Part shown: positions 1,034-14,434 of the stretch, in pieces
Numbering within the stretch: position 1 is the stretch's first letter
How the letters are laid out: each line of letters starts with the position of its first letter
From: Heliophilum fasciatum
Lineage (GTDB): Bacteria; Bacillota; Desulfitobacteriia; Heliobacteriales; Heliobacteriaceae
Direction: 5' to 3'
Length of the DNA: 64,000 bases
Assembly: GCF_004341395.1 (NCBI RefSeq)
Contig: NZ_SLXT01000006.1
Location: 62,001 to 126,000, forward strand
The notes under the pieces: model-generated
Told to the model about the DNA's origin: nothing
Databases searched by the model: none
The model's input: only the letters and a program-made list of their open reading frames with translations
Position numbers and translations under genes: made by a program

Positions 1034-1816
1034 TTAGCTGTGGAGAAAGCCCGTCAGCGGTGAAGAGGCCTGGGCAAGCTGGGAAATGGGGCCTACGCCG
1101 GCGCGATAAGCCTGGCGACCGGCGGCGACGGCATCGCCGAAGGCTTTGGCCATGGCGACGGGATCGTTGGCGGAGGCGATGGCCGTGTTGACCAAGCAGG
1201 CGGCGGCGCCCATTTCCATGGCTTCGCAGGCCTCAGAAGGACGGCCGATGCCGGCATCGACGATCACCGGCAGGGCGATTTCGGCGATCAAAATGCGGAG
1301 CAGTTCTTTGGTTTGGAGGCCGCGGTTGGAGCCAATCGGTGCACCGAGGGGCATGACGGCGGCGGCACCGGCATCGACGAGCGCCTTGGCCACCATCAGA
1401 TCGGGACTGATGTAGGGCAGGACAACAAAGTCTTCCCGGGCCAAAATCTCCGTGGCTTTGACGGTTTCGTACCCGTCGGGCAAAAGATACTTGTTGTCGG
1501 CGATCACTTCGATTTTAATCCAGTTGCCACAGCCGGCAGCGCGGGCCAGGCGCGCGATGCGGACGGCCTCTTCGGCGGTTCGTGCTCCGGAGGTGTTCGG
1601 CAGTAACTGCACGGTTTTCGGAATGTGCCGCATCACATTATCGGTGGATGCGGCAAAATCAACGCGCCGCAACGCGACGGTGATTACTTCGGAACCGGAC
1701 TGGGCAAGTACGTCCGGAATCAAGTGGTCCGAAGCGTATTTACCGGTGCCGACAAAGAGGCGGCTGGTCAGGGTCCGGCCACCCAGGACGAAGGGATCAA
1801 GGTGATATTCGGCCAT
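1034..1816 (-). CDS. thiG: Thiazole synthase ThiG
   Basis: Condenses 1-deoxy-D-xylulose-5-phosphate, dehydroglycine and ThiS-thiocarboxylate into thiamin thiazole phosphate. 260 residues, usual family length (TIM barrel). It starts [20 protein letters not shown]; the substrate-binding lysine is K101 in WIKIEVI. The phosphate-binding segments [15 protein letters not shown] and [10 protein letters not shown] are present. An upstream in-frame ATG at 1885 exists but lies inside thiS. The ATG at 1816 sits 2 bp after the thiS stop, so the two are translationally coupled. Partner of ThiS and ThiH. Confidence 0.96.
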
Positions 1817-1818
1817 GG

Positions 1819-2019
1819 TCAGCCCCCTCCCACAAAACGCAGTACTTCCAGGTTGTCCTTTTCCTGGAGTGTGATCGTGGCCCACTGATCCTGTTTGATG
1901 ATCTGTCCGTTGTATTCCACGATGATGCCGGACAGATCGTCCATTTTTTTGGTCAGATAGGCCGATAAAGTTTGGGTGCCGGTCAGTTCTGCCGGCTGGC
2001 CGTTGACGGTGATGCCCAT
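1819..2019 (-). CDS. thiS: Sulfur carrier protein ThiS
   Basis: Small ubiquitin-fold sulfur carrier (66 residues). The C-terminal Gly-Gly is adenylated and converted to a thiocarboxylate that donates sulfur to ThiG. The sequence starts [12 protein letters not shown] and ends RFVGGG, carrying one more glycine than the usual GG. The ribosome site AAAGGAG lies a few bases upstream of the ATG. It sits between thiD (about 30 bp upstream) and thiG (2 bp downstream). No thiF adenylyltransferase is visible in the window. Confidence 0.95.
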
Positions 2020-2048
2020 GAAAAAACTCCTTTCTGATGGGAAAGAGG

Positions 2049-2852
2049 CTAGTTGTACGTCAGCTTGCCTTTTTGATAAAGGTCAATCAGGTGGCCCACC
2101 GGGCCAGCACCTTGTCCGAGGGGCAGCGCATGGGTGATGGCGGCAGTGATGTAGGTTTTCGCTTGGCTGACCGCTTCGGCCACCGTGGCGCCCCGGGCGA
2201 GATACGAAGCAATCGCCGAAGAAAGAGTGCAGCCGGTGCCGTGGGTGTTTTTGGTGTCGATGCGTTTTCCTGGCAGGACCATGATCTGGTTACCGTCAAA
2301 AAGCAGGTCGTTGGCATCGTTGCAGCGGTGCCCTCCTTTGACGAGAACGTGCTTGGCGCCGCTCTGGGCAATCTGGCGGGCGGCCGCTTCCATACCGGCG
2401 GCGTCCTCGATGGTCAGCCCTGTGAGGGCCTCCGCTTCGGGAATGTTCGGTGTTGCTACGTCGGCGATGGCCAGCAGGTGGCGCAGTTCATCGACAGCCT
2501 CCGGCTGTAAGAGAAAATGACCGCTTTTGGCAACCATGACCGGGTCGACGACGATGTTCTTGGCGTCGTAGGCCTGCAGGGTTTCGCGAATGGTTCGGAT
2601 GATCGGTGCGCTGCTGACCATACCGATTTTGACAGCCGCCGGTGGGATGTCTTCGAAAATGGCTTGCATCTGCTGGCGCACCATTTCCGGCGTGAGCTCG
2701 GTAACGGCAAAGACGCCGGTGGTGTTCTGAGCGGTGATCGCCGTGATCACGGTCATCCCGTAAACGCCGAGAGCACACATGGTTTTGAGATCGGCTTGGA
2801 TGCCAGCACCGCCGGAGCAGTCCGAACCGGCAATCGAAAGAACAGGTTGCAT
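2049..2852 (-). CDS. thiD: Hydroxymethylpyrimidine/phosphomethylpyrimidine kinase ThiD
   Basis: Phosphorylates HMP and HMP-P in the pyrimidine branch of thiamin synthesis. 267 residues, normal length for the ribokinase-fold family. The N-terminus [21 protein letters not shown] carries the family's substrate-binding [13 protein letters not shown] motif. The C-terminal anion hole is seen in [16 protein letters not shown]. The ATG is preceded by AGGAGGATC. It is the first gene after the TPP riboswitch, so the whole thi operon should be shut down by thiamin pyrophosphate. Confidence 0.95.
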
Positions 2853-2863
2853 AAAGATCCTCC

Positions 2864-2894
2864 TAATAAAAAAAGCCTGCGGAAAGCAAGCTTT
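2864..2894 (-). terminator. Rho-independent terminator after TPP aptamer (attenuator)
   Basis: On the minus strand, AAGCTTGC pairs with GCAGGCTT around a five-base TTTCC loop and is followed by seven Ts and ATT. It lies directly between the TPP aptamer and thiD. This is the expected expression platform: transcription stops here when ligand is bound. Confidence 0.8.
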
Positions 2895-2899
2895 TAAAA

Positions 2900-2992
2900 A
2901 TTAGCCAACTTTCCTACGCCGGTATGACCCGGATCAGGTAATGAGGGTTGGATTGCTCCTCTCAGCCTTGCGGCACCCCTAGTGGATGTATG
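2900..2992 (-). promoter_or_regulatory. TPP riboswitch (thi box)
   Basis: Read on the minus strand, the segment carries the hallmark pieces in order: CTAGGGGTGCCG (P1/P2), GGCTGAGAGGA (the CUGAGA core), and ACCTGATCCGGGTCATACCGG followed by CGTAGGAAAG (P4/P5 and closing strand). These are the conserved blocks of the thiamin-pyrophosphate aptamer. It precedes thiD by about 50 bases, with a terminator hairpin in between, so control is by transcription attenuation. Confidence 0.95.
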
Positions 2993-3145
2993 CAGTTGTG
3001 GATACTACCTTAAGTATAGGCGGGAAAAAGGCTGCTGGCAAGTGCCACGATCCTTTCCGGTAGCGTATTTATGCAAGATCATGCTCGTTCGAGCGAGGGG
3101 ATACGTGTCAGGCGGTTAGGTGCTCTAAACGCATCGGAACGAGGT

Positions 3146-9462: not shown

Positions 9463-10008
9463 ATGACGAACGAACGTAAGCAGTACAGTGCACCACCGGC
9501 GATGGTGATTGATCCACAAAAAAGCTACAAGGCCACTTTCACCACCACCATGGGCAACTTTCAAATTGAATTGCTGCCGGCCAACGCACCGAATACGGTA
9601 AATAACTTTGTGTTTCTGGCGCGCGATCACTTTTATGACGGTGTGGTCTTTCACCGCATTATCAAAGATTTTATGATTCAAACCGGTTGTCCCCAGGGAA
9701 CGGGTACCGGCGGCCCGGGCTATCGCTTTGCCGATGAACTGCCGCCACAATTGCCTTATGAAGCGGGGATCGTGGCCATGGCCAATGCCGGTCCCAATAC
9801 CAACGGCAGTCAATTTTTTATCTGTAACGGTAAAAGTGCCCGTAACCTGAACAGCTATCCCAACTACACGGTTTTTGGGCGTGTGGTGGACGGTATGGAC
9901 GTGGTGCTGGCGATTTCGGCGGTGCCGGTGGGACGGAGCCCCCATGGGGAGATGAGCCGTCCGCTGGAACCGGTGACGATCGAGAAGGTGACGATCGAAG
10001 AGGCCTAA
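9463..10008 (+). CDS. ppiB: Cyclophilin-type peptidyl-prolyl cis-trans isomerase
   Basis: Catalyses proline isomerisation during protein folding. 181 residues. Core motifs: TTMGNFQIELLPANAPNTVNNFVFLA, the catalytic FHRIIKDFMIQTGCPQGTGTGGPGY, and MANAGPNTNGSQFFI. It ends with EKVTIEEA. The short-loop bacterial form, with no signal peptide from ATG 9463, so cytoplasmic. That ATG is preceded by AGGGAG; upstream in-frame ATGs (9391 on) would only add a low-complexity Asp/Gly-rich tail. Confidence 0.93.
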   Translation: MTNERKQYSAPPAMVIDPQKSYKATFTTTMGNFQIELLPANAPNTVNNFVFLARDHFYDGVVFHRIIKDFMIQTGCPQGTGTGGPGYRFADELPPQLPYEAGIVAMANAGPNTNGSQFFICNGKSARNLNSYPNYTVFGRVVDGMDVVLAISAVPVGRSPHGEMSRPLEPVTIEKVTIEEA

Positions 10009-10010
10009 GG

Positions 10011-10050
10011 GTCTGTAGACGTCTGTAGGCGTCTGTGGGCGTCTGTGGGC
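10011..10050 (+). repeat. 10-bp tandem repeat (4 copies)
   Basis: Four consecutive decamers: GTCTGTAGAC, GTCTGTAGGC, GTCTGTGGGC and GTCTGTGGGC, starting 2 bp after the cyclophilin stop and followed by GTC. Intergenic; no known function. Confidence 0.9.
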
Positions 10051-10204
10051 GTCCTGACGTACGCGGACAGCGAAGGGTTCTCCAGTGGGTTCTAGGGGAC
10101 CCTTCGCTGGCGGCAAAAGCACGGAAGAAGATGATGGAGCAGGGGCGCTTGTGGGACAAGGGCCTTTTTTTGCTCATCGGGGAATTGGATCACAGGAGGC
10201 GGGC

Positions 10205-11743
10205 ATGATCAAACGGCTGACCCTGGATTATCTACGCACCTTGATGCGCCGCGCCGATGCCAAAGGGCGCAGTTTTGCCGATACGCAGGCGCTGCTGGAA
10301 GCTGGTCCGACCTTTTTTGCTTATCTGGAATGGTTGATTGTGCCGATGGATGGGCAAGAGCGAGCTTCGATCAGCGAGGACCGGATGCGCGTCGTCGGTT
10401 CGGACGGTTGGTCGCTTCGGCCATGGGAACAGGTGATCTTTGGGCAAATCTTGCGGCAGCGGCTTTTTTTCTGCGCCCTCGATGATGTGGTTATGCTGGC
10501 CGATTTGCACCGGGCCATGGGAGACTTGGCCGAAGTATATGGCCGGCAAGTTGTCCTTGACGCATGGCGGGCTTGGGAAGAGCGTGTGCTGGCGGCGAAA
10601 CCGGTTTGCCCTCATGACGATGGGCTGGCCTGCGTGATTGCCGAGATCCTACGTACGGGTGATCGCGCTGCCAGGGAAGCGTTGTTGACGCACTTGCTTG
10701 TCTACCGGCGCACACTGGCCGATGCACCTGATGCGGATGCACTTGATGAGGAAGCTGGGGAATCGGCGGGAGAACCGTTAAGAGAACCGATAGCCTGGCT
10801 TGCCGAGGAGGTACGCTGTGCCCGGGAAAAAGCGGCAGCCATCGTGACAGCGCTGCGCCCCTTTGATCAGATTGCTGCAAGCCATGGCCGGCCGGCGCCA
10901 AAACTGCGGCAAGCGCACTGGATGGAATGCGTAAGCTACTACCGCCATGCTCACCGAGGGTTGTCCTTGATCATCGAAGAGCCCGACCCGGTGCGGCAAG
11001 GTCAAGGGCTGGCCTTGCTGCTGCGGGAGCGACATTTTCCCTGGACGGAGCATCTCTCATCGGATGCCTCCTTCGTGCAGGTCTTGTCCGCTCTTGTTCA
11101 GGACCGCCAAGCGTGCCTGCGGTGGCTGCGACAGTTGACCGCGCCGACCGTACCGGCGGCGCTACGTTGGCTATTGTTGTGGTATGGATTGGCCGGTGCC
11201 GGCGATTCAAGCGCGGTGGGGGAAGTGTTGGCGAAGGCCTATCAGGACGAGCGAAAAACCGGACAAAAACAACGGTTGTTGATCGATGCTCCCAATCTGG
11301 CGGTGATCGAGCAGCGTTGTGCTCAGGTGGTCCACGGCAACTCAGCAGGTGCAACCGCAGCGGCATTGACGCTGGCCGGTGATCTGTTGCCTGCCGCGCG
11401 ACTGCACCAACTGGCAGTGCAGCTTTGCCGCCATTGGGGCCTGGAGGCCGGTCAATTTTCGCCGGAACTGCAGGCTTGCGGCTTGCGATGGCTTGGCATG
11501 AATGCGGCAGGAACACCGCTCACCGGAGAGGCGCTACGGAATCAATTGCGCCGCCGCCCCGGTGCCTTTGCGTTTGACGGTACGCAGGCGGAATTGGAAG
11601 ACCGCCTGTGGACGTACCGCTTGCTGACACCGGGTCTGCTCGAGCCGGAGCAGGGTGAAGTCCTGTTGCGGGCCGTCGTGCAGCCGGAAGTGGAAGATGA
11701 AGCGGCAATCGATGCGTTGTTTGCCGGATTAAAAGATTGCTAG
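10205..11743 (+). CDS. Unrecognised helical protein paired with an Hsp70-like gene
   Basis: 512 residues from ATG 10205, which follows CAGGAGGCGGGC. I do not recognise a family. The composition is rich in Leu, Ala, Arg and Glu with long predicted helices and few prolines; there is no signal peptide or membrane segment. Segment 90-150 (GQILRQRLFFCALDDVVMLA) is hydrophobic-amphipathic. An acidic stretch lies near 180-200. The gene ends inside an 8-bp tandem repeat, and the Hsp70-like gene starts 48 bp further on, same strand, suggesting an operon. Stand-alone or fused helical domains accompany some bacterial Hsp70-like proteins (DUF3731 is one I considered), but I cannot confirm homology. Confidence 0.75.
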   Translation: MIKRLTLDYLRTLMRRADAKGRSFADTQALLEAGPTFFAYLEWLIVPMDGQERASISEDRMRVVGSDGWSLRPWEQVIFGQILRQRLFFCALDDVVMLADLHRAMGDLAEVYGRQVVLDAWRAWEERVLAAKPVCPHDDGLACVIAEILRTGDRAAREALLTHLLVYRRTLADAPDADALDEEAGESAGEPLREPIAWLAEEVRCAREKAAAIVTALRPFDQIAASHGRPAPKLRQAHWMECVSYYRHAHRGLSLIIEEPDPVRQGQGLALLLRERHFPWTEHLSSDASFVQVLSALVQDRQACLRWLRQLTAPTVPAALRWLLLWYGLAGAGDSSAVGEVLAKAYQDERKTGQKQRLLIDAPNLAVIEQRCAQVVHGNSAGATAAALTLAGDLLPAARLHQLAVQLCRHWGLEAGQFSPELQACGLRWLGMNAAGTPLTGEALRNQLRRRPGAFAFDGTQAELEDRLWTYRLLTPGLLEPEQGEVLLRAVVQPEVEDEAAIDALFAGLKDC

Positions 11744-11774
11744 ATTGCTAGATCGATAGATTGCTGGATTGCAG
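11735..11774 (+). repeat. 8-bp tandem repeat across a stop codon (5 copies)
   Basis: Units GATTGCTA, GATTGCTA, GATCGATA, GATTGCTG and GATTGCAG run head to tail. The stop codon (TAG, 11741-11743) of the preceding gene is in the first unit. The array fills most of the gap to the Hsp70-like gene. Confidence 0.9.
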
Positions 11775-11791
11775 GGGAAAGGGTGGACTCC

Positions 11792-13402
11792 ATGGCACGA
11801 ACGACCCGCTACTACGTAGGGATTGACTTTGGCACAACGAACAGTTCAGTAGCTCGTATTGCGGTGAAGGCGCGCCGTTCCCGCCGGCAGCCCGATGTGG
11901 CGCCGGAAGTACTGGCGCTACAGAACGGTTACGGGACCAAAGAACTGGTCCGCACGGTGCTCTTTTTCAGTCCCGATGGCCGGGTCATGACCGAAGAAGT
12001 GCCGGCCTTTGAGCAGCCGGAACGGGGAGTCTTGTCCTTAAAGCGCAAGATTATGGAAAACCGCCACTACACCAAAACCATCAACGGCCGCGTCTACCGG
12101 GCCGAGGAATTGGTGGGGCTTTTTCTCCAGGAATTATTGCGGCAAGCGGAATTGCGCTTGTCGATGATTGAGCGGTTGGTGCTCAGTGTACCGACGGGCG
12201 ATCGTCACGACTGGAAAGATGTATTGCTGGCCGGTGCGGTTCGTTGCGGGATCAAAGAAGAGCAAGTTTGGTTTGTCGATGAGCCGATCGCTGTACTTTG
12301 GGACTATAAAGATACCTTGGTACGACGCTTGCCTGATGATGCGCCGGTGCTGGTTTTTGATTTTGGCGGCGGCACCTTGGATCTGGCGGTGATGGACAAA
12401 GGACATTCCTTATCGAGCACCGACCCGGCGGCGGATCATCACCGGCGCAGCTTGATCTGGGCCAAGCGCGGTATTCCCGTGGGCGGTGATGATCTGGACG
12501 AAGTGATCTTGCGCTTGCTCATTGAAAAAGGCCAAGCCCAAGGCAATGTGGTCTGTCAGCAGATCAATACGGAACTGTTTGCATCGCCGGAACGGTTAGG
12601 GCGATTTCGTGAGCATCCGGTCTATGCACGGTTAAAACGCCATGCCGAGTTGATCAAAGCGGAACTGAGCCACGTGGAAGCGGTGCCGGTCGCGATTCCG
12701 CCGCTGTTGCCCCGGGTGGATCGGATGGGACTGGTGGGCTTACGCATGGAGCGGGATGAATGGGTGCAGGCGGCCGAGCCGATCTGGGCGCAGATCCGGG
12801 AAGGGCTGTGCCGTCTGGATCAGGATCTGCAAGCCAATCAGGGCAAAAGCTTGGCCGATGTGCAGGCGGTACTGCTTTCCGGCGGCAGCAGTCAAGTTCC
12901 CTATGTGATGGATTTGCTGGAGGAAGCGCTGCCGCAGGCACGGTTAATTTTTGATGAGCATCTGCAAACACGGATTTGTCGCGGCAATGCCCGTTATGGC
13001 CGCGATGACCATGAATGGGCGCTGGAGGATACGGTCGGTGTGGCCATCGGGGTGTACAACCACCGACAAGGTAAGGTCAATGTGTTGATTCCGGAGAACA
13101 GCACCTACCCGGTGGAGGTGACACGCCGCATAGCCACGACGCGCCCGGAACAGCGGGCCATCGATATCCGGCCCATGATCGGTAAAGACGGCGCTTTTCA
13201 ACCGTTATACCGCGATGCTCAGGCGGTAGCTTGTCGCATGCAGATTCAGCCGGTGGCTACGGTCGGCGATTATGAGCGGTTTTCGCTGACCTTGACGTTG
13301 GATAAATCGCAGCGTCTACAAATTCGTGCATACGATCATCAGTTTGATGAGACCGTCGGCGTGGAGGAGATTGCCTGGCCCGAGGAACCGCAACTGCCTT
13401 GA
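11792..13402 (+). CDS. Short divergent Hsp70-family ATPase
   Basis: 536 residues, shorter than DnaK (about 610-640). The actin-fold ATPase is complete: phosphate-1 DFGTTNSSVARI near residue 12, connect-1 like VDEPIAVLWDY, phosphate-2 VFDFGGGTLDLAV near 190, and adenosine motif LLSGGSSQVPYV near 365. Beyond about residue 400 a shortened beta-type substrate domain remains (QKVNVLIPENSTYPVEVTRR is typical of Hsp70), with no helical lid or C-terminal tail. ATG 11792 is chosen over GTG 11783 because AAGGGTGG is at proper spacing. No DnaJ or GrpE is nearby. It is probably a specialised chaperone working with the upstream unknown protein (inference from adjacency). Confidence 0.88.
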   Translation: MARTTRYYVGIDFGTTNSSVARIAVKARRSRRQPDVAPEVLALQNGYGTKELVRTVLFFSPDGRVMTEEVPAFEQPERGVLSLKRKIMENRHYTKTINGRVYRAEELVGLFLQELLRQAELRLSMIERLVLSVPTGDRHDWKDVLLAGAVRCGIKEEQVWFVDEPIAVLWDYKDTLVRRLPDDAPVLVFDFGGGTLDLAVMDKGHSLSSTDPAADHHRRSLIWAKRGIPVGGDDLDEVILRLLIEKGQAQGNVVCQQINTELFASPERLGRFREHPVYARLKRHAELIKAELSHVEAVPVAIPPLLPRVDRMGLVGLRMERDEWVQAAEPIWAQIREGLCRLDQDLQANQGKSLADVQAVLLSGGSSQVPYVMDLLEEALPQARLIFDEHLQTRICRGNARYGRDDHEWALEDTVGVAIGVYNHRQGKVNVLIPENSTYPVEVTRRIATTRPEQRAIDIRPMIGKDGAFQPLYRDAQAVACRMQIQPVATVGDYERFSLTLTLDKSQRLQIRAYDHQFDETVGVEEIAWPEEPQLP

Positions 13403-13496: not shown

Positions 13497-13534
13497 GCGT
13501 TGCTTTGGGTTGTGCCTGGGTAGAGAAGAACGAG

Positions 13535-14434
13535 GTGAGAGTTATCATTTTTCAACCCATAGGTTTAGAGGATCAAGCGTTGTTTCGTTCCTACTTACGC
13601 CAACGCCGTGATGAGGGCTCGGAATGTAATTTTACAACACTTTATATCTGGCGCCGGGCGTTTCAAACGGCATGGATGATTCTGGGCGATCACTTGGTGG
13701 TGCAAGCCGGCCGGGGGGAAAGGTACTTTTTACCGCCTTTTGGACCGGACGATGAACGCCTGGATGAAGTCATCCAGCAGTTGCAAGCGTTTTGCCGGGT
13801 GCAAGGGATGACCTGGGTCATGCGTGGAACGCCCGATTGGCTCGTTTGCCGGTTAGCGACACGCTTTCCCGGCAAGTACCGTTTTCGGGCTGATCGGGCC
13901 AGCTATGACTATGTATACCGGGCTCAAGATCTGATCGAACTGGGCGGGCGGAAGTATCAAGCGAAGCGCAATCATCTGCATAAGTTCGAAAAGGAATATC
14001 CGAACCATCGCTATGTGCCCTTGACGGAAGAGTGGATCGGCGCTTGTCTGGACAATGAACGGGAATGGTGCAGTCAACGCGGCTGTGACCAAGATGAGAA
14101 CCTGCGTCTGGAAAAAGAGGCCATTACCGATGCCCTCGATCATTTTTTGGAGTTAGGCGTTACCGGCGGTGTGTTGATCATCCGGGACAAAGTGGAGGCT
14201 TTTACCTTTGGGGAAGCGCTTCATGCCGATACGGCATTGATCCATGTGGAAAAAGCGAATCCCAATATTGCCGGCTGTTATCCCTTTATTAACCGTGAAT
14301 TTTGCCGGCAAGCCTGGTCAACGATGACCTATATCAATCGGGAAGAAGATCTGGGCTTGGAGGGCTTACGCAAAGCCAAACTGTCTTATCGTCCGGTCAA
14401 GTTTGTGAAAAAATATACGGTGACGTTGGCCTAA
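13535..14434 (+). CDS. DUF2156 family protein (phosphatidylglycerol lysyltransferase C-terminal-like)
   Basis: About 299 residues with the GNAT-like double fold of DUF2156, the family that includes the catalytic part of MprF-type aminoacyl-lipid synthases. Stand-alone Firmicute members have no proven function. Recognisable pieces are FQPIGLEDQALFRSYL at the N-terminus, KYQAKRNHLHKFEKEYPNHRY in the middle, HVEKANPNIAGCYPFINREF and NREEDLGLEGLRKAKLSYRP at the end. No membrane segments, so it is not a full MprF. The start is uncertain: GTG 13535 gives MRVIIFQPI, matching relatives, but its ribosome site is weak; ATG 13505 is in frame. The next gene follows within about 40 bp. Confidence 0.85.
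   Translation: MRVIIFQPIGLEDQALFRSYLRQRRDEGSECNFTTLYIWRRAFQTAWMILGDHLVVQAGRGERYFLPPFGPDDERLDEVIQQLQAFCRVQGMTWVMRGTPDWLVCRLATRFPGKYRFRADRASYDYVYRAQDLIELGGRKYQAKRNHLHKFEKEYPNHRYVPLTEEWIGACLDNEREWCSQRGCDQDENLRLEKEAITDALDHFLELGVTGGVLIIRDKVEAFTFGEALHADTALIHVEKANPNIAGCYPFINREFCRQAWSTMTYINREEDLGLEGLRKAKLSYRPVKFVKKYTVTLA

Follow-up and report, generated by a model that had tools for sequence, protein, structure and literature searches.

In one review, three prokaryotic Hsp70 types are named (DnaK, HscA and HscC), and the J-domain is described as docking on DnaK through its HPD motif, with the aspartate contacting R167 and Q378, the histidine the backbone of L391, and the proline P419 (PMC8215388); the central place of R167 in J-domain docking is also given in a second paper (PMC7289447). 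A third source describes lidless Hsp70s as binding substrate weakly and fast, and Ssz1 as an Hsp70 without the helical lid of the substrate-binding domain (SBD-alpha), the SBD of which is completed by one dedicated partner (PMC7083937). Here we describe a 64,000-nucleotide stretch of the heliobacterium Heliophilum fasciatum (hereafter, the window), which encodes a 512-residue protein of no recognised family, P1, and, directly downstream, a lidless and divergent Hsp70, P2. We tentatively favour a reading, suggested by the position of the two genes, in which P1 is the dedicated partner of P2 and does the job of both J-protein and lid.

P2 is a divergent Hsp70 without a lid

The P2 gene (11783-13402, plus strand) starts at either GTG 11783 (539 aa) or ATG 11792 (536 aa), and its product matches the Pfam family HSP70 (PF00012, E = 1.8e-15). 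P2 scores well below the NCBIfam equivalog cut-offs for PRK00290 (60.2 bits against a cut-off of 648) and HscA (40.2 against 708.55), and is 21% identical to Escherichia coli DnaK by blastp. Alignment and a structure model divide it into a nucleotide-binding domain (NBD, about residues 8-407), a linker (about 408-417), and the beta-sandwich part of the SBD (SBD-beta, about 418-535). All the catalytic positions compared with those of E. coli DnaK are kept (D8, G10, T11, T12, K70, E171, D194, the GGGT of 196-199, and G342), which suggests that P2 hydrolyses ATP. In the alignment, three of the 97 lid positions are filled, as against 107 of the 113 SBD-beta positions. The first-pass annotation of P2 as a divergent Hsp70 with intact ATPase motifs and neither lid nor tail is thus borne out.

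The structure model (mean pLDDT 76.4, pTM 0.68, with linker residues 409-417 below 50) has no helix of at least four residues past residue 407, and only strands beyond 418 (421-531). It was made from an alignment of P2 with 49 DnaK-like proteins of viral contigs, hand-picked from 160 loci, and because these canonical-like rows favour a canonical fold with a beta-sandwich, we take the model as support rather than proof. Its closest solved chains are DnaKs (Z about 36); two of the best three VIA-align matches are lid-deleted Mycoplasma DnaK, the lid-deleted DnaK chains matched include 5obu and 7krv, and Ssz1 chains are also among the fold matches.

Among the DnaK residues that we take to form the peptide cleft and its arch (I401, M404, F426, A429, V436, and I438), the cleft hydrophobics are mostly kept in P2 (I401V, F426I, V436I, and I438I) while the arch positions are changed (M404 to R and A429 to T), and peptide binding by P2 is therefore likely to be weak or altered. 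The linker reads WALED where the canonical sequence is VLLLD, with L391 and D393 kept and the other hydrophobic positions changed.

Searches for P2 in relative genomes and in the phylum (the latter with at most three candidates scored per genome) returned matches of 24-31% identity, the best at 1.5e-16 and 8.5e-20, respectively, which by their length and coverage look like ordinary DnaKs. On plasmids, 11 records matched at 1e-12 and 185 at 0.01, and the gene neighbourhoods of three were read; a P2 pattern scan of GTDB was empty.

J-domain docking residues are replaced in P2

At the positions of DnaK R167, N170, and T173, P2 carries Q161, D166, and I169, and the position of Q378 is taken, depending on the alignment, by Y405 or G401, with no glutamine in either case. 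In a hand-picked comparison set of 27 Hsp70s, this R-N-T triad was complete in all 12 rows of the DnaK, HscA, or HscC type and in none of the 15 atypical rows, which comprise P2, YegD and YegD-like proteins, NBD-only or long Hsp70s encoded beside dynamin-type GTPases, the Hsp70 of a Priestia Hsp70-HEAT cluster, and Hsp70s of the DUF2760 and DUF3731 types. Each triad residue was also kept in 48 of the 49 viral-contig rows chosen for the P2 model. Phylogenetically, P2 falls outside the clade of DnaK, HscA, and HscC (support 99/97), without a supported sister and on the longest branch of the tree (2.81), a length that makes its placement unsure. The replaced docking residues make it probable that P2 depends on something else than a J-protein, and we regard it as an atypical Hsp70 that is probably J-independent, even though L391 and D393 of its linker are kept.

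The atypical Hsp70s of the set often adjoin, or are fused to, a large protein that is not a J-protein. The partners are encoded by dynamin or GTPase genes (L077 and L089), a HEAT-protein gene (L098), and DUF2760 genes together with a fused DUF3731 (L093, L095, L096, and L097). The clusters of L077 (genome G008) and L089 (a Rhodococcus plasmid) hold dynamin-like as well as other GTPases, and the L077 Hsp70 is an NBD-only form of 393 aa. In the literature collection searched, no paper on DUF3731 with Hsp70, on DUF2760, or on "J-protein independent" Hsp70 was found. As a separate observation, two genomes of the same class as H. fasciatum carry extra clusters of GrpE, Hsp70, and J-TPR genes (L078, 3826-8057; L079, 3040-6821); in each, the Hsp70 gene stands between the other two. 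These two Hsp70s count among the 12 rows that keep the R-N-T triad, and the J-domains of their clusters read, by eye, PPD and PPE at the HPD position.

P1 is a gene of no recognised family

P1 (10205-11743, plus strand) looks like a real gene: it runs from ATG 10205, behind an AGGAGG ribosome site at 10194-10199, to a TAG at 11741-11743, its frame is free of stops as against 5-19 in each of the five other frames, and its codon usage is native (z = -0.51 relative to 48 open reading frames [ORFs] of the same genome), as is that of P2. The ORF of 512 residues is confirmed, and so is its earlier description as a protein that no family name fits, as neither Pfam nor PADLOC returned a match at E <= 1. 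Matches in NCBIfam and PHROG were far from significant, the single PDB match had an E-value of 2.2, and internal repeats were not significant (35 of 200 shuffles were equally good). The suggestion that P1 is a nucleotide exchange factor gains no support from similarity to GrpE, either in Pfam (E <= 1) or by phmmer (at most -2.9 bits against three GrpEs); similarly, P1 has no Pfam DnaJ match at E <= 1 and no HPD string. Its description as helical is not established, the basis for it being a single-sequence structure model that is unusable (pLDDT 39.8) and a composition rich in Ala and Leu.

A search of 61 relative genomes returned P1 itself as the one match. In 398 genomes of the phylum (E <= 0.01), P1 was joined by a 55-aa match (E = 0.0025), and in 82 genomes of the class (E <= 1) by six weak ones, the best at 0.0049. 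Pattern scans of GTDB contigs and of viral contigs (the latter with the whole of P1 and with both halves), and searches of plasmids and phages, were empty or weak, and comparison with the 6004 ORFs of the collected loci gave nothing convincing. Of the weak matches, three could be assigned: a pair falls in group-1 glycosyltransferases and the third in a sigma-54 regulator. We take the likeness to glycosyltransferases as chance, for the following reasons: (i) the profile, on which P1 scored 3.0 bits (1 of 500 shuffles was as high), was built from the matches themselves and the test is thus circular; (ii) two further glycosyltransferases of the same locus did not match P1; and (iii) the C-terminal part of P1 has no Pfam glycosyltransferase at E <= 10, but only HEAT_PBS at E = 2. 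The P1-P2 pair is so far restricted to one sequenced heliobacterium.

Leader, repeats, and transcription

Between the upstream cyclophilin gene and P1 lies a structured leader (10009-10204, plus strand) with three hairpins, two of them strong and one terminator-like, and a fold that none of 200 shuffles equalled in stability (z = -3.38). The start at 10011 first assigned to this locus is that of the leader; the gene itself begins at 10205. A 10-bp tandem repeat of 4.3 copies (10011-10053) can pair into a 16-bp hairpin, and the second strong hairpin spans 10063-10114. The terminator-like hairpin with U7 (10137-10171, plus strand), recognised from fold and sequence, stands 33 nt upstream of the P1 start codon, and was missed by a simple terminator scan because of an internal mismatch. 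The leader matches no Rfam family at gathering score and is single-copy in the genome, save for one 22-base match. It would either end the upstream (cyclophilin) transcript or regulate P1 as an attenuator. A second tandem repeat, of 8 bp in 4.9 copies (11734-11772), overlaps the last codons and the stop of P1. The tandem repeats reported on either side of the first gene are real, and both exceed chance, one lying in the leader and the other across the P1 stop codon.

P1 and P2 are on the same strand and in the same frame, with a single TAG, located in the 8-bp repeat, followed by 13 open codons to GTG 11783. The gap between them, originally given as 48 bp, has that length if P2 starts at ATG 11792 and is 39 bp if it starts at GTG 11783; the simple scan listed no terminator-like site in it. 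The two genes are probably co-transcribed.

A possible partnership of P1 and P2

The first-pass annotation proposed that the two proteins form a two-component chaperone. The observations behind this proposal, namely adjacency, a lidless Hsp70, intact motifs, an unrecognised neighbour, and no dnaJ or grpE nearby, have all held: five GrpE and DnaJ queries found no relative in the 920 frames of the window, and the two DnaJ-domain genes of the genome are both on contigs other than that of P1 and P2. In the partnership that we tentatively favour, P2 would keep the ATP-hydrolysing motor and the beta-sandwich peptide-binding domain without lid or J-docking residues, and P1 would hold either the target or the open beta-sandwich of P2 and set the ATPase cycle. 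ATP-bound P2, being lidless, would bind substrate weakly and fast; docking of P1 on P2 or on its substrate would then trigger hydrolysis or stabilise the closed state, and nucleotide exchange on P2 would be spontaneous. By analogy with the behaviour of lidless Hsp70s and with the partner of Ssz1, P1 may complete or drive P2. We infer, as plausible, that P1 contacts P2, that it has this role, and that P2 is independent of J-proteins.

Several points weigh against this picture. L391 and D393 of the linker and P419 of the SBD, which are J-domain or allostery contacts, are kept in P2, and some response to J-proteins is therefore possible. N170 and T173, two of the three triad positions, are ones that we only presume to bind the J-domain, and the triad is lost to varying degrees, R167 being kept in three of the 15 atypical rows, all of the DUF3731 type. 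For two atypical Hsp70s of the set, those of L086 and L088, no gene nearby stands out as a partner. No ortholog of P1 or P2 was found in any collection searched, which deprives the pair of comparative support. Finally, the next gene downstream is also close and a terminator-like hairpin precedes P1, which leaves the transcription unit undefined.

Since adjacency is the sole link between the two genes, it is also possible, though we lean away from it, that P1 and P2 are unrelated neighbours, with P2 acting alone or with other partners and P1 an orphan of another function. The region mixes unrelated housekeeping genes and no relatives show linkage; on the other hand, the same-strand gap is short and without a terminator-like site, and several other atypical Hsp70s are encoded next to a large partner. 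That P2 should be no more than an ordinary accessory DnaK, still working with the DnaJ or CbpA-like J-protein of the cell and with GrpE, seems improbable to us. The retention of L391, D393, and P419 and the presence in the cell of two J-proteins and GrpE would fit such a role, but the positions of R167, N170, T173, and Q378 are all replaced, and P2, for all that its long branch makes the placement unsure, falls outside the DnaK/HscA/HscC clade.

Very improbable, in our view, is that P1 is a split-off and highly divergent DUF3731, the helical C-terminal domain that is fused to atypical Hsp70s in Proteobacteria. This candidate arose from a motif pattern, and three sequence tests left it unsupported. 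Residues 321-343 of P1 locally resemble the stretch WWTLWRRAAGG, and blastp aligned 126 aa at 28.6% identity (E = 0.24, in a small set); however, a profile of eight fusions gave P1 -1.0 bits (31 of 200 shuffles were as high) and its C-terminal part 0.4 bits (9 of 200), hhalign returned a probability of 0.04% for P1, and PF12531 was found in none of the 398 phylum genomes (E <= 0.01). That read-through of the single TAG sometimes yields one P1-P2 protein of the 1064-residue class is hardly credible: the shared frame and the 13 open codons up to the GTG start would permit it, but P2 has plausible starts of its own, we estimate the chance of a shared frame without a further stop at roughly one in five to six, and TAG is an ordinary stop here, ending 9 of 48 ORFs.

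Genomic setting

The window belongs to contig C6 of an assembly of 73 contigs and 3.14 Mb in all, and the genome also encodes a PsaA/PsaB-type reaction-centre protein (PF00223, E = 1.6e-18, in a 611-aa frame). The gene upstream of the leader encodes a cyclophilin-type peptidyl-prolyl isomerase (9463-10008, plus strand; Pfam Pro_isomerase, 1e-43), and that downstream of P2 an LPG_synthase_C protein, of the phosphatidylglycerol lysyltransferase C-terminal type (13505-14434, plus strand; PF09924, 5.2e-54). The latter has no match in eight other genomes of the family (E <= 1e-5), and the P1-P2 stretch may thus be peculiar to this lineage, despite its native codon usage.

PF00012 matches in the genome are DnaK, P2, and two more, one of which is an MreB inside the window. 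The one canonical DnaK is encoded in an operon of the order hrcA, chaperonin, grpE, dnaK, dnaJ (L107, on contig C11). The chaperonin between hrcA and grpE (1476-3122 of that locus) is a TCP-1/cpn60 protein of 548 aa (Pfam, 2.6e-112), and is similar to the archaeal-like "group III" chaperonins of the bacterium Carboxydothermus. The second J-protein gene (L275, 323-1270; CbpA-like, with DnaJ and DnaJ_C) is followed by what appears, by eye, to be the start of a ClpB gene. Elsewhere in the window, a TPP riboswitch aptamer lies on the minus strand (2894-2990; 66.8 bits, over the Rfam gathering score).

Comparison with known systems

P2 fits none of the DnaK, HscA, and HscC types. What seems to be new here is the replacement of the docking triad by Q, D, and I; the atypical Hsp70 with non-J coupling is a known kind. 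A broader proposal, which we think unlikely, would place P2 in a wide and hardly described class of bacterial Hsp70s outside the J-protein/GrpE cycle, each with its own unrelated partner (a GTPase, a HEAT protein, DUF3731, or P1), in which the motor is kept and the triad and mostly the lid are lost; P1-P2 would then be an independently invented Hsp70 control system. If P1 does replace a J-protein in the ATPase cycle of P2, the pair would show how an Hsp70 motor couples to a new partner, and further Hsp70s of this sort could be sought with the R-N-T triad as a simple marker in the sequence, although the reach of this is limited by the pair having been found in one genome so far.

With the DnaKs of E. 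coli and of this organism, P2 shares an NBD with all catalytic residues and an SBD-beta; it differs from them in its absent lid and tail, its replaced J-docking residues, its place outside the DnaK clade, and its long branch. YegD is likewise atypical and without triad or lid, but its SBD is absent (none of the 113 positions filled). The Hsp70s of the proteobacterial DUF2760/Hsp70/Hsp70-DUF3731 clusters resemble P2 in having no R-N-T triad and a nearly empty lid, and in the Hsp70-DUF3731 proteins an atypical Hsp70 is coupled to a large, helical-looking domain. That domain is fused, whereas P1 is separate; DUF3731 has no sequence relation to P1, and no DUF2760 was found beside P2. A Firmicute case is the Hsp70-HEAT cluster of a Priestia megaterium plasmid (L098, 1615-8472), where an MBL-fold hydrolase gene is accompanied by an atypical Hsp70 of 583 aa encoded between a 476-aa orphan and a HEAT-repeat protein; neither neighbour is detectably similar to P1, and this Hsp70, like P2, has Y at the Q378 position. 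Ssz1, of the fungal ribosome-associated complex (Ssz1-Zuo1), binds ATP without hydrolysing it and has a J-protein as its partner, whereas the catalytic residues are retained in P2, and neither a DnaJ match nor an HPD is seen in P1; in architecture, however, Ssz1 is like P2, a lidless Hsp70 with a complete SBD-beta.

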